Source: Lactobacillus sp.
GTDB lineage: Bacteria > Bacillota > Bacilli > Lactobacillales > Lactobacillaceae
DNA length: 64,000 bases
Assembly (NCBI GenBank): GCA_022651245.1
Contig: JALCQM010000014.1
Coordinates: 1 to 64,000, forward strand
Reading direction: 5' to 3'
Every line of letters begins with the position of its first letter. Positions within the stretch are counted from its first letter, which is position 1. Below, piece by piece: positions 1,842 through 8,292 of the stretch. A program made the position numbers and the translations under genes. The notes under the pieces were generated by a model. That model saw only the letters and a program-made list of their open reading frames with translations. It did not search any database and was not told the DNA's origin.

Positions 1842-1889
1842 TTCATTAGAAGCTTAAACGGCTAAGCCGAACCGATAGGAGTGATTAAT

Positions 1890-2450
1890 GTGAAATTTGT
1901 CGCAATTGTGGGCACGAACGCCAAACGCTCATATAATCGAATGCTTTTACACTACATGCAAAACCATTTTGACCAAGCGACGATAACGGTTGTTGATATC
2001 CAGGGCATTCCAATGTTTAACGAAAATCATCCGGAAACGGATCCTGAAGCCGTGGTCGAACTGGCAGCAGCAATCGCAGAGGCGGATGGCGTGATCATTG
2101 GCTGTCCGGAATATAACCACAGTGTGCCATCGCCGTTGAAGAGTGTGATCGAATGGCTGTCTTACCGCCTGCATCCATTTGCGGACAAGCCAGTCATGAT
2201 CGTTGGGGCATCCACTTATCCCCAAGGTTCATCGCGCGCCCAATTGCATTTGCGCCAGATTTTAGATTCACCAGGGGCCAATGCTCAGGTCTTTCCAGGA
2301 AATGAGTTTTTACTTGGCCAAGCCAATCGGGCGTTTGATGATGAAGGCAACTTGAAGGACTCGGGCACCATCGATTTTTTGACGCAGTGCTTTGACGGGT
2401 TCTTGGACTTTGTCGCCATGCACCAGCAATTCAAGAAGGGGGACGCCTAA
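1890..2450 (+). CDS. NAD(P)H-dependent FMN reductase family protein
   Basis: A flavodoxin-fold oxidoreductase that binds FMN and takes electrons from NAD(P)H; the physiological acceptor is unknown. The family signature is visible: an N-terminal [14 protein letters not shown] phosphate loop, the [18 protein letters not shown] segment and a [13 protein letters not shown] helix. The GTG at 1890 is preferred because AGGAG (1877-1881) sits 8 nt upstream and the product then starts MKFVAIVG, matching the neighbour's MLLTAIVG; an in-frame GTG at 1881 would overlap the ribosome-binding site. It overlaps the next gene by one base. The two reductases are clearly related, so this looks like a tandem duplication in which only the second copy gained extra domains. 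Confidence 0.9.
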
Positions 2451-3559
2451 TGTTACTGACTGCGATTGTCGGCACGAACGCCGACTTTTCTTATAACCGG
2501 CTCTTACTGCAGTATATGCAAAAACATTTTAAGGGACTCGCAAACATCCGGATCGTCGAGATTGATACGTTACCACCATTCAGTGAGGATACACCAGCTG
2601 ATATGGCGGTGTGGCGCTTTAAAAAAGCAATTCAGCTTTCAGATGGGGTGATTTTTTCGACACCGGAATATGATCATTCCATTCCAGCAGCACTAAAAAG
2701 TGCGATCGAATGGCTGTCATACAAATCAGAAGTCTTGAAGCACAAACCGGCAATGATCGTCGGCACTAGTTATGGTCCCCAGGCATCGTCACGCGCACAA
2801 GAACATTTGCGACAGATCTTGGCTTCACCAGATTGCGATGCGTATACTTTGTCTGGTAATGAAATGTTGATTGGCAATGCGGCTAAGGTATTTGTCGATG
2901 GTAACGTGACGGACCGGCGGATACAGGCCGAGTTGGAAGAGTATTTTGTCAACTTCGTTAAATTTATCGATCAAACTGCAGAGGGGGACGACGCGATGTC
3001 GATGCACCAACCTTATTTAGATGACGCTTATATCAATTTTCCTACCGGACGCTTGAGCTTCCGTGAGGTGCAACAGATTTTTAGTACGATTCCATTTGAA
3101 ATCGATTTGATCGATCATAATGACAAATTCTCATGGTTTTCGAACAAGCCGAATCGTGAGCACGTTCGCTCGGTTCGAGAAATCGGCGAAGGGGTTGAAG
3201 AATGTCACCCACCTAAGGCGTTGCCGATTGTCATGAAAATTATTAACTCGTTTAAAGACGGTAGCCAAGATTCTGTCAGTCGGCCGTTGATGATGCACGG
3301 GCACCGCGTGTTGATCCAGTATTATGCGTTGCGAGACGTTGATGGGTCGTATTTAGGCACCATCGAGTTTACGGGTAGTGTCGAACACATCTTGAATTTT
3401 TACGAGCAAGGCGCGTGGTCTGACGCCGCCACTGGGGCTTCGCAAACAGACGGGACGACGGGGGCTTCCGAGCATGCCGAAACGGCACCGGATGAGACAC
3501 CTGAGCCCAAACCTAAAGCCGATTCTAGCGACGGGACTAGCGGTGCATCTGAACATTAG
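2450..3559 (+). CDS. FMN reductase-PAS fusion with a triple flavinylation-motif tail
   Basis: Residues 1 to about 180 form an NAD(P)H-dependent FMN reductase domain (VGTNADFSYNR, TPEYDHSIPAALKSAIEW, ASSRAQEHLRQIL). Residues about 190-318 resemble the PAS-like domain found at the end of DUF438 proteins (CHPPKALPIVMKIINSFKDG, then YYALRDVDGSYLGTIEF). The last 50 residues are low-complexity and contain DAATGAS (325-331), DGTTGAS (334-340) and DGTSGAS (361-367). Each fits D-x-x-(S/T)-G-A-(S/T), the pattern in which ApbE enzymes attach FMN to the final Ser/Thr. The next gene is apbE, 15 bp away. The inference is that this soluble protein carries covalent FMN on a flexible tail that could shuttle electrons from the reductase domain. 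Family assignment of the reductase domain is firm; flavinylation is a prediction. Confidence 0.9.
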   Translation: MLLTAIVGTNADFSYNRLLLQYMQKHFKGLANIRIVEIDTLPPFSEDTPADMAVWRFKKAIQLSDGVIFSTPEYDHSIPAALKSAIEWLSYKSEVLKHKPAMIVGTSYGPQASSRAQEHLRQILASPDCDAYTLSGNEMLIGNAAKVFVDGNVTDRRIQAELEEYFVNFVKFIDQTAEGDDAMSMHQPYLDDAYINFPTGRLSFREVQQIFSTIPFEIDLIDHNDKFSWFSNKPNREHVRSVREIGEGVEECHPPKALPIVMKIINSFKDGSQDSVSRPLMMHGHRVLIQYYALRDVDGSYLGTIEFTGSVEHILNFYEQGAWSDAATGASQTDGTTGASEHAETAPDETPEPKPKADSSDGTSGASEH

Positions 3560-3574
3560 TAACGAGGCAAACGC

Positions 3575-4489
3575 ATGAAACAAACAAAAGTGGGACACGG
3601 CTTGGGGACGACGATCACCCTCACCGTGTTTGGCGAATTAACCAGTGTAGCGCTTGACGCCGCATTTGCGTTAATTGCTGAATATGAAGACCGGCTGACG
3701 GTCAACCGCGCCGTATCCGAGGTAATGGCGGTCAATCATGCTGCGGGCGAACATCCCGTCGCGGTCTCGCATGCCACCTATCAATTGGTGCAGCGAGCGG
3801 TTGCCGCTAGTCGTGAAAATTTCGGTTTCAACGCTTTGATCGGCCCGCTAGTCAAGCTATGGGCGATCGGCTTTGCGGACGCGCATGTCCCGGCCGAAGC
3901 AGACATTACGGCGCGCCAGCAATTGATTGATCCCCAACAAGTCCTGCTCGATCCAGACGCCCAAACCGTGTTTTTACAGCAGTCTGGCATGGAGCTAGAT
4001 CTTGGCGGCATCGCCAAAGGTGAAATCGCCGATCGGGTGGCCGACTTATGGCGTGCTTATGGCGTGGCTAGTGGCATTATCGACCTTGGTGGCAATCTCG
4101 TGTTTGTCGGGGCCTCACCTCATCGTCCAGACGGTGAGTGGGTGATTGGGGTACAAGATCCTCAGCGTGCTCGGCACGAAGAGGTGGGGCGCGTGTGCCT
4201 ACCGGCTTGCACAGCGGTCACCAGTGGGATCTACGAGCGCTTCTTGATCGTTGATGGGCAACAGTATCATCATCTCCTAGATTCGCGGACCGGACACCCC
4301 TTACAAACCCAGTTGTCTGGGGTGACCGTTTTTGCGACACAATCTGTGGTCGCTGAGACGGAAGCCAAGCGGTTGTTCTTTGCCGGTGCCCCCTTACCAG
4401 GTTGGCACCAGAAGCCGGGTATCTTCGGTGCTGTTTTTGTTTATCAAGATGGCCGAGTCGTTGCTGATGGGGTGACGTTGCAGCATTGA
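3575..4489 (+). CDS. apbE: FAD:protein FMN transferase, cytoplasmic type
   Basis: Moves FMN from FAD onto a Ser/Thr of a target protein. Family blocks are present in order: MELDLGGIAKGEIADRV, SGIIDLGGNLVFVG, CTAVTSGIYERF and YHHLLDSRTGHPL. No signal peptide or lipobox is visible, so it should act in the cytoplasm, unlike the exported ApbE forms. Its start lies 15 bp after the upstream gene, whose tail holds three matching target motifs, so that protein is the likely substrate. One oddity: where many ApbE proteins have AD-x-L-x-T near the C-terminus (metal ligands), this one reads AETEAK, with Glu261 for Asp and Lys265 for Thr. 304 residues is normal for the family. Confidence 0.92.
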   Translation: MKQTKVGHGLGTTITLTVFGELTSVALDAAFALIAEYEDRLTVNRAVSEVMAVNHAAGEHPVAVSHATYQLVQRAVAASRENFGFNALIGPLVKLWAIGFADAHVPAEADITARQQLIDPQQVLLDPDAQTVFLQQSGMELDLGGIAKGEIADRVADLWRAYGVASGIIDLGGNLVFVGASPHRPDGEWVIGVQDPQRARHEEVGRVCLPACTAVTSGIYERFLIVDGQQYHHLLDSRTGHPLQTQLSGVTVFATQSVVAETEAKRLFFAGAPLPGWHQKPGIFGAVFVYQDGRVVADGVTLQH

Positions 4490-4623: not shown

Positions 4624-4702
4624 GATTGCAGGCAATTTATAATCCGTTTCAGCGTTGATACAATGAATCACAGCTAATGGAATGAATAATCTGGGGGTTA
4701 AT

Positions 4703-5884
4703 ATGGAAGAAGTCGTGATCATCAGTGCCCAGCGAACACCGATTGGGAAGTTTGGCGGGGCTTTGAGCACTATGAATGCGGTGGCTTTGGGTGAGCACGC
4801 CGCAAATGCTGCGATCCACGCCGCGGGGATTTCTCCTGAGTTGATTGATCAGGCGATTTTCGGGAATGTCTTGCAAGCTAATTCAGGACAAAATGTCGCC
4901 CGTCAAATTGCTTTGGGGGTTGGGATGCGGCCCGAAAGCACTGCAATAACGATCAATGAGGTTTGTGGCAGTGGGCTCAAAGCCGTTCGCCTGGGGCAAA
5001 GTGCAATTGTTATGGGTGATGCTGAAGTCGTGTTGGTCGGCGGAACAGAGAATATGAGTCAAGCCCCTTTTTATGCGCCGAATATGCGTTTTGGGAAGAA
5101 ACTCGGGGATGTGGCGTTCGTGGATGGCATGATGCGCGATGGCTTAGCGGATGCGTTCACCAATGAGCCGATGGGCGTCACCGCCGAAAATGTGGCTGCG
5201 GAATACCAAGTATCGCGAAAAGCACAGGACGCTTTTGCGTTGGCATCGCACCAAAAAGCCATCGCGGCAACGGCACGCGGTGATTTTGATGCCGAAATTG
5301 CCCCTGTGACTGTTGAAACGCGTCAAGGCGCCGTGGTGGTGCGACATGATGAAGGACCGCGAGCGGATACCAACGCGGAGAAGTTAGCTAAGCTGCGACC
5401 GTCTTTTCGGGCCAATGGGACGGTGACCGCCGGTAATGCGAGTGGCATCAATGATGGCGCCGCCGCTTTGATCTTGATGACTCGGCGTAAGGCAGAAGCC
5501 CTTGGCCTAGATTGGCTAGCGACAATTACGGGCTTTGCCGAAGGTGGCATCGCACCGCGAGTGATGGGCTATGCGCCGAAAGCGGTGGTTGAAACGCTGC
5601 TGCAACGGACACATACCGCACCAGAAGCAGTCGATATTTTTGAGCTGAATGAAGCGTTCGCAGCCCAAAGTGTCGCAGTGGTGCGTGATCTGGGCTTAGA
5701 CACCGCGGCGGTTAACCCGTTAGGCGGCGCGATCGCGTTAGGCCATCCTTTGGGCGCCTCTGGTGCTCGCTTATTGGTGACGTTAGCGCATCAACTCAAG
5801 CGTCATCAGCAACACATTGGGGTGGCAGCCTTGTGCATCGGCGGCGGTATGAGTGTCGCGATGCAAGTGGAGGCGGCACAATGA
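4703..5884 (+). CDS. Acetyl-CoA C-acetyltransferase (thiolase)
   Basis: Condenses two acetyl-CoA to acetoacetyl-CoA, the first step of the mevalonate pathway. The catalytic set is present: Cys88 in NEVCGSGLKAV, His348 in GGAIALGHPLGASGAR and Cys378 in CIGGG. The ATG at 4703 is preferred because GGGGG lies at 4693-4697; an in-frame ATG at 4682 would add 7 residues. Its last four bases overlap the HMG-CoA reductase start (ATGA). In enterococci and some relatives these two activities are fused as MvaE; here they are separate, overlapping genes. 393 residues is standard. Confidence 0.95.
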   Translation: MEEVVIISAQRTPIGKFGGALSTMNAVALGEHAANAAIHAAGISPELIDQAIFGNVLQANSGQNVARQIALGVGMRPESTAITINEVCGSGLKAVRLGQSAIVMGDAEVVLVGGTENMSQAPFYAPNMRFGKKLGDVAFVDGMMRDGLADAFTNEPMGVTAENVAAEYQVSRKAQDAFALASHQKAIAATARGDFDAEIAPVTVETRQGAVVVRHDEGPRADTNAEKLAKLRPSFRANGTVTAGNASGINDGAAALILMTRRKAEALGLDWLATITGFAEGGIAPRVMGYAPKAVVETLLQRTHTAPEAVDIFELNEAFAAQSVAVVRDLGLDTAAVNPLGGAIALGHPLGASGARLLVTLAHQLKRHQQHIGVAALCIGGGMSVAMQVEAAQ

Positions 5885-7122
5885 AGTTTTATCAACTCGA
5901 TGCGGCACAACGTCGACAACAATTGGTGGCCGAAGGGTATTTGACCTCGGAGGCTGCGGCTGCGTGGGCACAGCCAGCACTACCGAGTAGTGTTGGCCAG
6001 GCGTTGAGTGAAAATACGATCGGAGAGTTCGCCTTACCCGTGGGGATCGCGCGCCAGCTGCAGGTGAATGGCCAGGTGTATCAAGTGCCAATGGCCACCG
6101 AAGAGCCTTCTGTTGTGGCTGCCGCATCGAATGGCGCCCGGCTCGCAGCACTAAACGGTGGCGTAACGGCGACCACAACAGCACATTTGGTGACCGGTGA
6201 AATCGTCTTTGCGGATCTACCAGATCCTTCGAAGGTTCAAGCTTTGATCACCGAGCGCCAAACGGTCTTGATTTTAGCTGCCCAAGAGGCGCACCCTTCG
6301 ATCGTTCGGCGAGGTGGCGGGGTACAACTGATCACCGCTACAGTCCTAGGCCGCTTTTTGAAAGTGACCGTCGTCGTCGATACGCAGGCCGCAATGGGGG
6401 CTAACATTGTCAACACGATCTGTGAACACCTCGCTGCCGTGCTGGAACAGTGGGTCAAACAAACTGCGCTGGTAGCGATCTTGAGTAATGCCAGTGCCCA
6501 GCTGACAACAGCGACAGTCACATTGGCGCCCGAGACGCTGGCGACTAAGGCAGTCGCAGGTGCTGAAATCGCGTCGCGCATTGCCTTGTTAAGTGAGTTA
6601 GCCCAAGTCGATCGTGATCGCGCGGTGACGCACAACAAAGGCATCATGAATGGTGTTGAAGCAGCGGTACTGGCAAGCGGTAATGACACGCGTGCCGTGA
6701 GCACCAGCGTCGGAGAATATGCGGCGCATACTGGGCAATACCAACCCCTAAGTACTTGGCAACTTGATCAAGGGCTGTTGGTAGGGACTTTACGCCTGCC
6801 ATTGCCGGTCGGTATCGTGGGTGGGGCCATCTCCGCATTACCACGAGCGCAAGCCGTGAAGGCCTTAGGGCGATATGATACTGTGGCGACGTTGCAGCAA
6901 GTCTTAGCCAGCTTAGGGTTGGTCCAAAACTTAGCCGCGTTGCGGGCTTTGGCGGGGCCGGGCATTCAAGCAGGACATATGGCCCTTCAAGCCAATGCAT
7001 TAGCCATGGCGGCAGGGGCACATGGTCCCGAGATCGGCACAGTGGCGAAGGCACTACAGCACACCACCAAGGACTTGGCAACGGCGCAAGCACTTTTAGC
7101 AGATTTAAGACAAAAAGGATGA
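5881..7122 (+). CDS. mvaA: HMG-CoA reductase, class II
   Basis: Reduces HMG-CoA to mevalonate, the committed step to isopentenyl diphosphate and the undecaprenyl carrier. Class II catalytic positions can be read: Glu74/Glu75 in MATEEPS, Lys253 in HNKGIMNG, Asp269 in GNDTRAV (16 residues later, as in Pseudomonas mevalonii) and His366 in AGHMALQ. The DAMGxN-like segment reads AAMGAN. The start is fixed by GGAGG at 5869-5873 and the 4-bp overlap with the thiolase gene. It is followed 6 bp later by HMG-CoA synthase, so the three genes form one operon. 413 residues. Confidence 0.95.
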   Translation: MKFYQLDAAQRRQQLVAEGYLTSEAAAAWAQPALPSSVGQALSENTIGEFALPVGIARQLQVNGQVYQVPMATEEPSVVAAASNGARLAALNGGVTATTTAHLVTGEIVFADLPDPSKVQALITERQTVLILAAQEAHPSIVRRGGGVQLITATVLGRFLKVTVVVDTQAAMGANIVNTICEHLAAVLEQWVKQTALVAILSNASAQLTTATVTLAPETLATKAVAGAEIASRIALLSELAQVDRDRAVTHNKGIMNGVEAAVLASGNDTRAVSTSVGEYAAHTGQYQPLSTWQLDQGLLVGTLRLPLPVGIVGGAISALPRAQAVKALGRYDTVATLQQVLASLGLVQNLAALRALAGPGIQAGHMALQANALAMAAGAHGPEIGTVAKALQHTTKDLATAQALLADLRQKG

Positions 7123-7128
7123 GAGCAC

Positions 7129-8292
7129 GTGAAAATTGGAATTGATCAGATCGGTATGGCAACGCCGGCTTTTTATCTCGACTTAATTGAGCTGGCTCAA
7201 GCACGAGGAGATGAACCGGAGAAATATACCATCGGCATTGGCCAAGACCAGCAAGCCGTCGCCCCGAGCAGTCAAGATATCGTGACGCTGGGTGCCAGTG
7301 CGGCCAACTTCCTGTCGGCTACTGATCGTGAACAGATTGGGTTGATCGTTGTGGGGACCGAAACTGGGATCGATGCCTCGAAAGCGAGTGCGTTATACAT
7401 TCACGATCTGCTCGAATTAAGCCCTTGGTGTCGGGCCTTGGAGATCAAGGAAGCATGTTATGGTGGAACGGCAGCCTTGATGATGGCTCGCGATTTTATT
7501 GCGGCCCATCCCCAGCAAAAAGCGCTAGTGATCGCGGCTGACATTGCGCGCTACGGCCTGGCGAGTGGTGGGGAAGTGACTCAAGGAGCCGGGGCTGTGG
7601 CGATGTTAGTCAGCACCTCACCGCGGTTACTCGCTTTGCAAGACGACTCCGTGGTCAAAAGCGGGTCGATCATGGATTTTTGGCGGCCACAATACACTGA
7701 TTTAGCCTTAGCGAAGGGCAAGTATTCAACTGAACAATACCTGGCTTTTTTTCAGGCGACATGGACGCGCTATCAGGTTGAAACGGGACTGGATTTGAAT
7801 GATTTCGCCGCCTTATGCTTTCACCTACCGTACACGAAGATGGGGTTGAAAGCCTTGAGGACCGCACTGCCAGCGGTCGATGAGGCTAAGCAAGCAGCTT
7901 TAAAGGCGCATTTTGAGGCTAGTTGCCAATACAGCCGGCGAATCGGTAACTTATACACGGGTTCGTTGTATCTCGGTTTGCTCTCGATGTTGGAATTGGA
8001 CGGCCACCTTCAGGCTGGTGACCGGATTGGTTTGTTCTCGTACGGTTCAGGAGCCGTGGGAGAATTCTTCAGCGCGGAATTGCAGCCGGGGTTTGAACAG
8101 CAACTGCATGCTGTTGCGCATCAACACCTGTTAGATTCACGCCAACGCTTAGCCGTGGCGGAATATGAAGCCGTCTTTACGGACAAGGTACCTTATGGTC
8201 CAAAAGACTATCAGGCGAATTCAAAATACTTTGCTGGACCGTTTGTCCTGACAGGCGTCACTGATCAAGAGCGCCAATACCAACGGCTATAG
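7129..8292 (+). CDS. mvaS: Hydroxymethylglutaryl-CoA synthase
   Basis: Joins acetyl-CoA to acetoacetyl-CoA, giving HMG-CoA, and so links the two enzymes encoded upstream. Key residues are visible: the ETGIDASKA segment with the general-base Glu, nucleophile Cys110 in KEACYGGTAAL and His232 in CFHLPYTKMG. Translation begins at GTG 7129, with AAGGATGAG upstream. 387 residues matches bacterial MvaS. It is the last gene of the operon; a strong hairpin follows. Confidence 0.96.
   Translation: MKIGIDQIGMATPAFYLDLIELAQARGDEPEKYTIGIGQDQQAVAPSSQDIVTLGASAANFLSATDREQIGLIVVGTETGIDASKASALYIHDLLELSPWCRALEIKEACYGGTAALMMARDFIAAHPQQKALVIAADIARYGLASGGEVTQGAGAVAMLVSTSPRLLALQDDSVVKSGSIMDFWRPQYTDLALAKGKYSTEQYLAFFQATWTRYQVETGLDLNDFAALCFHLPYTKMGLKALRTALPAVDEAKQAALKAHFEASCQYSRRIGNLYTGSLYLGLLSMLELDGHLQAGDRIGLFSYGSGAVGEFFSAELQPGFEQQLHAVAHQHLLDSRQRLAVAEYEAVFTDKVPYGPKDYQANSKYFAGPFVLTGVTDQERQYQRL

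Follow-up and report, generated by a model that had tools for sequence, protein, structure and literature searches.

Organization of the locus

The 64,000-nucleotide stretch of DNA analysed here (the window) forms part of a 2.77 Mb genome of the family Lactobacillaceae, and its PAS domain is closest to that of Lacticaseibacillus baoqingensis (94% by sequence comparison). The window carries a tight operon of three genes, encoding in order a FRedA-like FMN_red protein, a protein in which an FMN_red domain is followed by a PAS_10 domain and a C-terminal tail, and an ApbE-type FAD:protein FMN transferase (Table 1). The stop codon of the first gene overlaps the start of the second (TAATG) and apbE begins 15 bp past the stop of the second; for the FRedA-like gene, the GTG at 1890 is a likelier start than that at 1881. 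The first-pass annotation had placed the feature of interest at 3419-4489, a span that takes in the tail and apbE but misses the beginning of the gene to which the tail belongs, at 2450.

In Pfam searches, the proteins of the operon match only FMN_red, PAS_10 and ApbE, with neither FAD_binding_2 nor FMN_bind among the hits. The earlier statement that the cluster lacks a terminal reductase is therefore correct within the window, but in relatives such a reductase is fused or adjacent. Inspection of the ApbE sequence reveals neither a signal peptide nor a lipobox; its best solved relative is 7ESA (5.3e-55) and the TSGxYER and YHHxxDxxTGxP blocks are conserved. The translation of the FMN_red-PAS protein is also devoid of a signal peptide, the FMN_red core beginning at residue 1. 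Downstream (4682-8292) lie genes that read from their translations as thiolase-, HMG-CoA reductase- and HMG-CoA synthase-like (mevalonate pathway), for which no link to the flavin operon was seen.

Table 1. Features of the operon in the window and of related loci elsewhere
Feature	Locus	Position	Strand	Evidence
FRedA-like FMN_red subunit, predicted heterodimer partner, 189 aa from GTG 1881	Window	1881..2450	+	Pfam FMN_red, 8.3e-37
FMN_red-PAS_10 protein with predicted flavin arm, 369 aa	Window	2450..3559	+	Pfam; AlphaFold2; homologues
FMN_red domain, residues 1-145	Window	2450..2884	+	Pfam, 7.7e-31; tree grouping with CrdA-like small partner subunits
PAS_10 domain, residues 208-307	Window	3071..3370	+	Pfam, 2.6e-15; sequence and fold matches 2QKP, 3CAX
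Disordered tail, residues 324-369	Window	3419..3556	+	AlphaFold2, pLDDT <50
Flavinylation motif 1, DAATGAS, residues 325-331, predicted acceptor Ser331	Window	3422..3442	+	
Flavinylation motif 2, DGTTGAS, residues 334-340, predicted acceptor Ser340, best conserved	Window	3449..3469	+	
Flavinylation motif 3, DGTSGAS, residues 361-367, predicted acceptor Ser367	Window	3530..3550	+	
apbE, cytoplasmic-type FAD:protein FMN transferase, 304 aa	Window	3575..4489	+	Pfam, 7.1e-65
Contig 27 gene row	L053 (contig 27, 3000-22000)	7352-8050, 8075-9172, 9597-11393, 11408-12184, 12203-12895		
FMN_red with repeat tail beside motif-less PAS gene	L148; L154; L155	5994-6932; 5872-6936; 51-1232		
PAS-arm-PAS-arm protein, 569 aa, 7 motifs	L098	5706-7415		

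Conservation of the tail motifs

The three C-terminal motifs recorded in the first-pass annotation are exact matches to the ApbE consensus D-x-x-[ST]-G-A-[ST], beginning at residues 325, 334 and 361, with the acceptor Ser codons at nucleotides 3440, 3467 and 3548. The disordered arm that it described also agrees with the AlphaFold2 model. When the 50-residue tail was shuffled 200,000 times, two motifs arose twice and three never, and no other strict motif occurs among the 29,254 residues of the window's open reading frames. The copies differ in their codons (Ser being TCG, TCC or TCT), and thus are not a fresh DNA duplication. Across 41 FMN_red-PAS homologues, the key motif residues are 83% identical and the tail spacers 25%, a contrast that is still large given the tendency of the aligner to line motifs up; the corresponding values for the FMN_red and PAS domains are 61% and 68%. 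In motif 2, D334 and A339 are invariant in this set, whilst G338 and S340 are each 95% conserved. The motifs exceed chance expectation by far, and no other part of the tail is conserved.

Linkage of the arm to ApbE

Close association with apbE extends well beyond the window: 45 distinct window-type FMN_red-PAS proteins were compared, and for 40 of them an apbE gene lies on the same strand within 2 kb, in keeping with the adjacency noted at first pass. Random loss of the motifs among homologues that keep the domains and apbE had been named beforehand as an observation that would refute the proposal. The window clade passes this check: at least one strict motif is kept in all 45 proteins, each of which has between one and five. 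The picture is less clear in a second clade (FMN_red-PAS2), where 13 of 54 proteins are without a strict motif; 12 of these 13 have drifted copies, e.g. DAVASAS or DATSSAS, and apbE is often close. All heptads of a single tail are commonly altered alike to DxxASAS or DxxSSAS, for example as three DxVASAS copies (L299, L303, L306, L308 and other loci), with apbE still near in several of these loci. Such uniform change suggests that the heptads have drifted together with their transferase rather than having been lost at random.

Among 301 Lactobacillaceae genomes, 96 encode both an arm-type protein and a cytoplasmic-type ApbE, 23 the arm only, 27 ApbE only and 155 neither, a co-occurrence statistic that ignores relatedness. 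The 23 arm-only genomes were counted at a strict cut-off; Pfam finds ApbE in 22 of them and the remaining genome is 76% complete. Nine stand-alone arm genes of Secundilactobacillus are without apbE in the surrounding stretch examined. Together, co-occurrence and linkage with ApbE count for the flavinylation of arm proteins and, given the motifs, it is highly probable that at least one of the sites in the window protein carries covalent FMN.

Relationship to FRedA/FRedB and LjPAS

The two FMN_red genes of the window differ from each other, lie in tandem and are orthologues of FRedA and FRedB. In an FMN_red tree of 31 rows, some forks of which are weak, FRedB of a Lactobacillus genome groups with the second FMN_red of the window and FRedA falls within a FRedA/CrdB-N group. 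The operon is predicted to encode a FRedA/FRedB-type heterodimeric NADH:FMN oxidoreductase. The Lactobacillus johnsonii FRedA/FRedB heterodimer passes electrons from NADH to FMN or FAD, forming H2O2; it reduces free FMN with a Km of 20 uM, binds FMN at 1.96 uM and retains about 0.58 FMN per dimer after purification (PMC4500961). Like the window operon, this system combines two FMN_red proteins in tandem with a PAS_10 protein (LjPAS), the PAS being fused to FMN_red in other lactobacilli. With free FMN, FRedA/B shows activity in the absence of an arm. Co-expression of LjPAS renders FRedA soluble, purified LjPAS only slowed formation of the FRedA/B complex, and its transcript undergoes an about 3-fold change with aeration (PMC4500961). 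Flavinylation was not considered in that study and the word ApbE is absent from it (Valladares 2015, PMC4500961).

PAS_10 proteins of 244-247 aa and 28.0 kDa, encoded in Lactobacillus genomes (L278-L283), carry three motifs (e.g. DATTGAT, DTATGAS and DTSSGAS); in such a genome, apbE lies near the FRedA/B genes instead. These proteins probably correspond to LjPAS, a match made by size, genus and single PAS domain, and LjPAS is therefore probably a substrate of ApbE. Short PAS proteins of about 140-160 aa were rejected as candidates for LjPAS, having no motifs and the wrong mass.

Origin of the arm-bearing subunits

In the cinnamate reductase Crd of Vibrio ruber, a small FMN_red protein forms a heterodimer with a large subunit whose N-terminal domain is FMN_red. 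HcrA/HcrB of Lactiplantibacillus plantarum form a heterodimer of the same kind, again with FMN_red at the start of the large subunit (PMC10295242). In the tree, FRedA of the window groups, with weaker support, with the N-terminal FMN_red of FMN_red-FAD_binding_2-FMN_bind reductases, being 68% identical to this domain of the Liquorilactobacillus sucicola reductase; the second FMN_red of the window groups, with good support, with the small partner (CrdA-like) subunits of such reductases. Compared with HcrAB and Crd, the large-type subunit of the window has neither FAD_binding_2 nor FMN_bind, and a PAS-arm has been added to the small-type subunit. In the window type, the tree shows the CrdA-like subunit to be the bearer of the arm; in the second clade the bearer is the CrdB-N-like subunit, and there the PAS-arm stands in place of the FMN_bind/FAD_binding_2 part. 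This distribution suggests that PAS-arms were grafted twice, independently, onto an HcrAB-related heterodimer, the arm assuming the terminal electron-handling role.

The predicted flavin arm as a reusable module

The range of protein contexts in which the arm occurs suggests that it is a module that has been reused. Window-type FMN_red-PAS arms are present in Lacticaseibacillus, Limosilactobacillus, Companilactobacillus, Liquorilactobacillus and Secundilactobacillus, whilst proteins of the second clade (about 410-490 aa) also bear the arm and are distributed across many genera; at least two genomes of the family Streptococcaceae encode versions with two motifs. FMN_red proteins with motif tails and no PAS are likewise present in Streptococcaceae. 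In Secundilactobacillus and Lactiplantibacillus loci, an arm of five to seven strict motifs sits directly on FMN_red and adjoins a PAS gene that has no motifs (Table 1); these tails also contain several degenerate motifs and form a regular repeat containing YSSDLD. Distant PAS_10 matches outside the Lactobacillales, of about 390-440 aa, have no motifs and were left out of the arm comparison.

Stand-alone PAS-arm proteins, which have no FMN_red domain, possess the most regular arrays, with three to six motifs. Across 25 named loci encoding them, the genes nearby include ApbE (13), pyruvate oxidase (11), FAD synthetase (9) and lactate oxidase (4), the FAD synthetase gene often standing beside ApbE. 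A gene (c6) next to one stand-alone arm was considered as a fumarate reductase; this was rejected, as Pfam and comparison with the PDB identify a pyruvate oxidase. The genome of the window itself encodes two further PAS-arm proteins on contig 27, each with five motifs, their genes lying in one series with those for lactate oxidase, pyruvate oxidase and FAD synthetase. The double PAS-arm protein in Table 1, from a metagenome-assembled genome titled Bifidobacteriaceae (the label as given), occurs with pyruvate oxidase, FAD synthetase and ApbE.

Arms are also found fused or adjacent to reductases. Secundilactobacillus collinoides and S. paracollinoides encode FMN_red-PAS-arm-FMN_bind-FAD_binding_2 fusions of 1020 and 1022 aa, respectively, and in three Liquorilactobacillus species a gene for an FMN_red-FAD_binding_2-FMN_bind protein of 804-815 aa directly precedes that of the FMN_red-PAS-arm.

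A proposed electron carrier and its alternatives

These observations are best explained, with a probability of roughly 0.6, by a heterodimeric flavin reductase that carries a PAS-docked, multi-flavin swinging arm as its electron carrier. In this scheme, the neighbouring ApbE would fix up to three FMNs to Ser331, Ser340 and Ser367, and the non-covalent FMN of the FMN_red core would be reduced by NADH. The tethered flavins would act as a built-in substrate replacing free FMN, swinging to the core to collect electrons and handing them either to O2, with H2O2 as the product, or to a partner protein in the cytosol, for example an FMN_bind-FAD_binding_2 enoate reductase. Docking of the arm on the flavoenzyme would fall to the PAS domain and, elsewhere, the free PAS-arm protein would serve pyruvate oxidase or lactate oxidase. 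An electron role is proposed for the arm because of its fusion or adjacency to FMN_bind-FAD_binding_2 reductases and its oxidase neighbours. Considered separately, electron carrying by the arm is somewhat favoured, and docking through the PAS domain is held with comparable, reserved confidence.

A different reading would make the PAS-arm a redox or oxygen sensor, in which the flavins report redox state or dock in the PAS pocket and the PAS regulates assembly or activity of the flavoenzyme, with little electron flux through the arm. Sensing is a classic function of the PAS fold, and the slowed FRedA/B assembly and aeration-dependent transcript reported for LjPAS would fit such a function; given these L. 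johnsonii data, a regulatory role of the arm protein is possible. Flavin and heme PAS domains (NifL, LOV, FixL and DOS) also appear, at weak similarity, in the Foldseek list for the window PAS domain; its main resemblance is to 2QKP and 3CAX, whose entries are for uncharacterised proteins, and these matches speak neither for nor against a flavin in the PAS pocket. On the other side, up to five to seven motifs in a tail of variable length suit a carrier better than a sensor, the Secundilactobacillus and Lactiplantibacillus arms sit on FMN_red itself with none on the neighbouring PAS protein, and the fusion to FMN_bind-FAD_binding_2 indicates electron flow. A sensor is thus considered unlikely. 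The tethered FMNs might instead occupy the two sites at which the heterodimer binds FMN non-covalently, with the extra copies as spares. The FMN affinity and occupancy of FRedA/B given above are in line with such cofactor retention, as is the location assigned to the motif sites in Lactococcus, close to where FMN_red holds its flavin (Huang 2024, PMC11334425), yet motif copies outnumber the sites to be filled, and the most regular arrays belong to stand-alone proteins that have no FMN_red and adjoin oxidases, which renders this explanation improbable.

It is less probable still, and the least credible reading, that the heptads are a low-complexity repeat or the site of another modification. 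Tails rich in Ala, Ser, Asp and Glu evolve fast, and a minority of lineages have departed from the strict motif while keeping apbE. Against this, the heptads conform exactly to the ApbE consensus and are selectively conserved, arm proteins are linked to and co-occur with ApbE, FAD synthetase is found within the same operons, and the nearest characterised proteins are flavinylated (PMC11334425).

Relationship to known flavinylated proteins

Those nearest relatives are the FMN_red proteins of Lactococcus, whose unstructured C-terminal extension contains one or two motifs and is flavinylated by the cognate ApbE, as demonstrated by co-expression and by loss of the modification on changing the Ser/Thr to Ala; covalent attachment was suggested to secure the flavin (Huang 2024, PMC11334425). 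They share with the window protein the FMN_red domain, the unstructured motif-bearing extension and a cognate apbE nearby, but have fewer motifs and no PAS is mentioned. The window protein differs in the PAS_10 domain inserted between reductase and tail and in its three motifs (up to five to seven in relatives), and is accompanied by a gene for a heterodimer partner; paralogues also exist in which the PAS-arm stands alone. Proteins with several ApbE sites, for which longer-range electron transfer was proposed, are also known (Meheust 2021, PMC8238504; Tong 2023, PMC10339131). These are extracytosolic and use one folded FMN_bind domain per flavin, whereas the window arm consists of bare heptads in a disordered cytoplasmic tail with no FMN_bind match.

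The architecture had been regarded at first pass as undescribed. This view requires qualification, since FMN_red-PAS fusions (PMC4500961) and flavinylated FMN_red tails with one or two motifs (PMC11334425) were already on record. In the open-access literature, no description was found of the PAS-arm, of three- to seven-motif arrays in disordered tails or of the arm as a module, nor any account of operons combining the arm with oxidases or of flavinylation of LjPAS.

More tentatively, with the balance of judgement slightly against it, the Lactobacillales may possess an unrecognised class of soluble cytoplasmic carriers, including LjPAS, in which PAS-docked disordered multi-FMN arms are loaded by a dedicated cytoplasmic ApbE. 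Such carriers would form a common outlet for NADH:FMN reductase and for pyruvate and lactate oxidase, and could feed enoate/fumarate-type reductases. Lactic acid bacteria form H2O2 via FMN reductase, pyruvate oxidase and lactate oxidase; if the proposal is true, a shared, covalently loaded arm links these H2O2-forming enzymes, bearing on how electrons are split between O2 and other acceptors. It would also explain the presence of apbE and FAD synthetase within pyruvate oxidase operons, and the LjPAS results of 2015 would need re-reading. ApbE sites would, moreover, work as tandem bare peptides, offering a ready scaffold for the attachment of flavins to proteins.

Other ApbE systems and candidate targets

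The genome of the window encodes a second ApbE, on contig 24 (L001), which on inspection reads as a lipoprotein. It adjoins a PplA-like lipoprotein with two DVVSGAT motifs, and an FMN_bind domain is found there by hmmscan. The cytoplasmic and extracytoplasmic flavinylation systems thus seem to be kept apart within the genome. Thr is the last residue of the sites on contig 24, and Ser that of most cytoplasmic sites. In Lactobacillus-genus genomes (L228-L239), a small YtxH-like protein has an N-terminal hydrophobic stretch and one to three terminal motifs or near-motifs (DSNSGASEEEHKE, DAATGASEEEHKE), and is a possible membrane-tethered target of ApbE.
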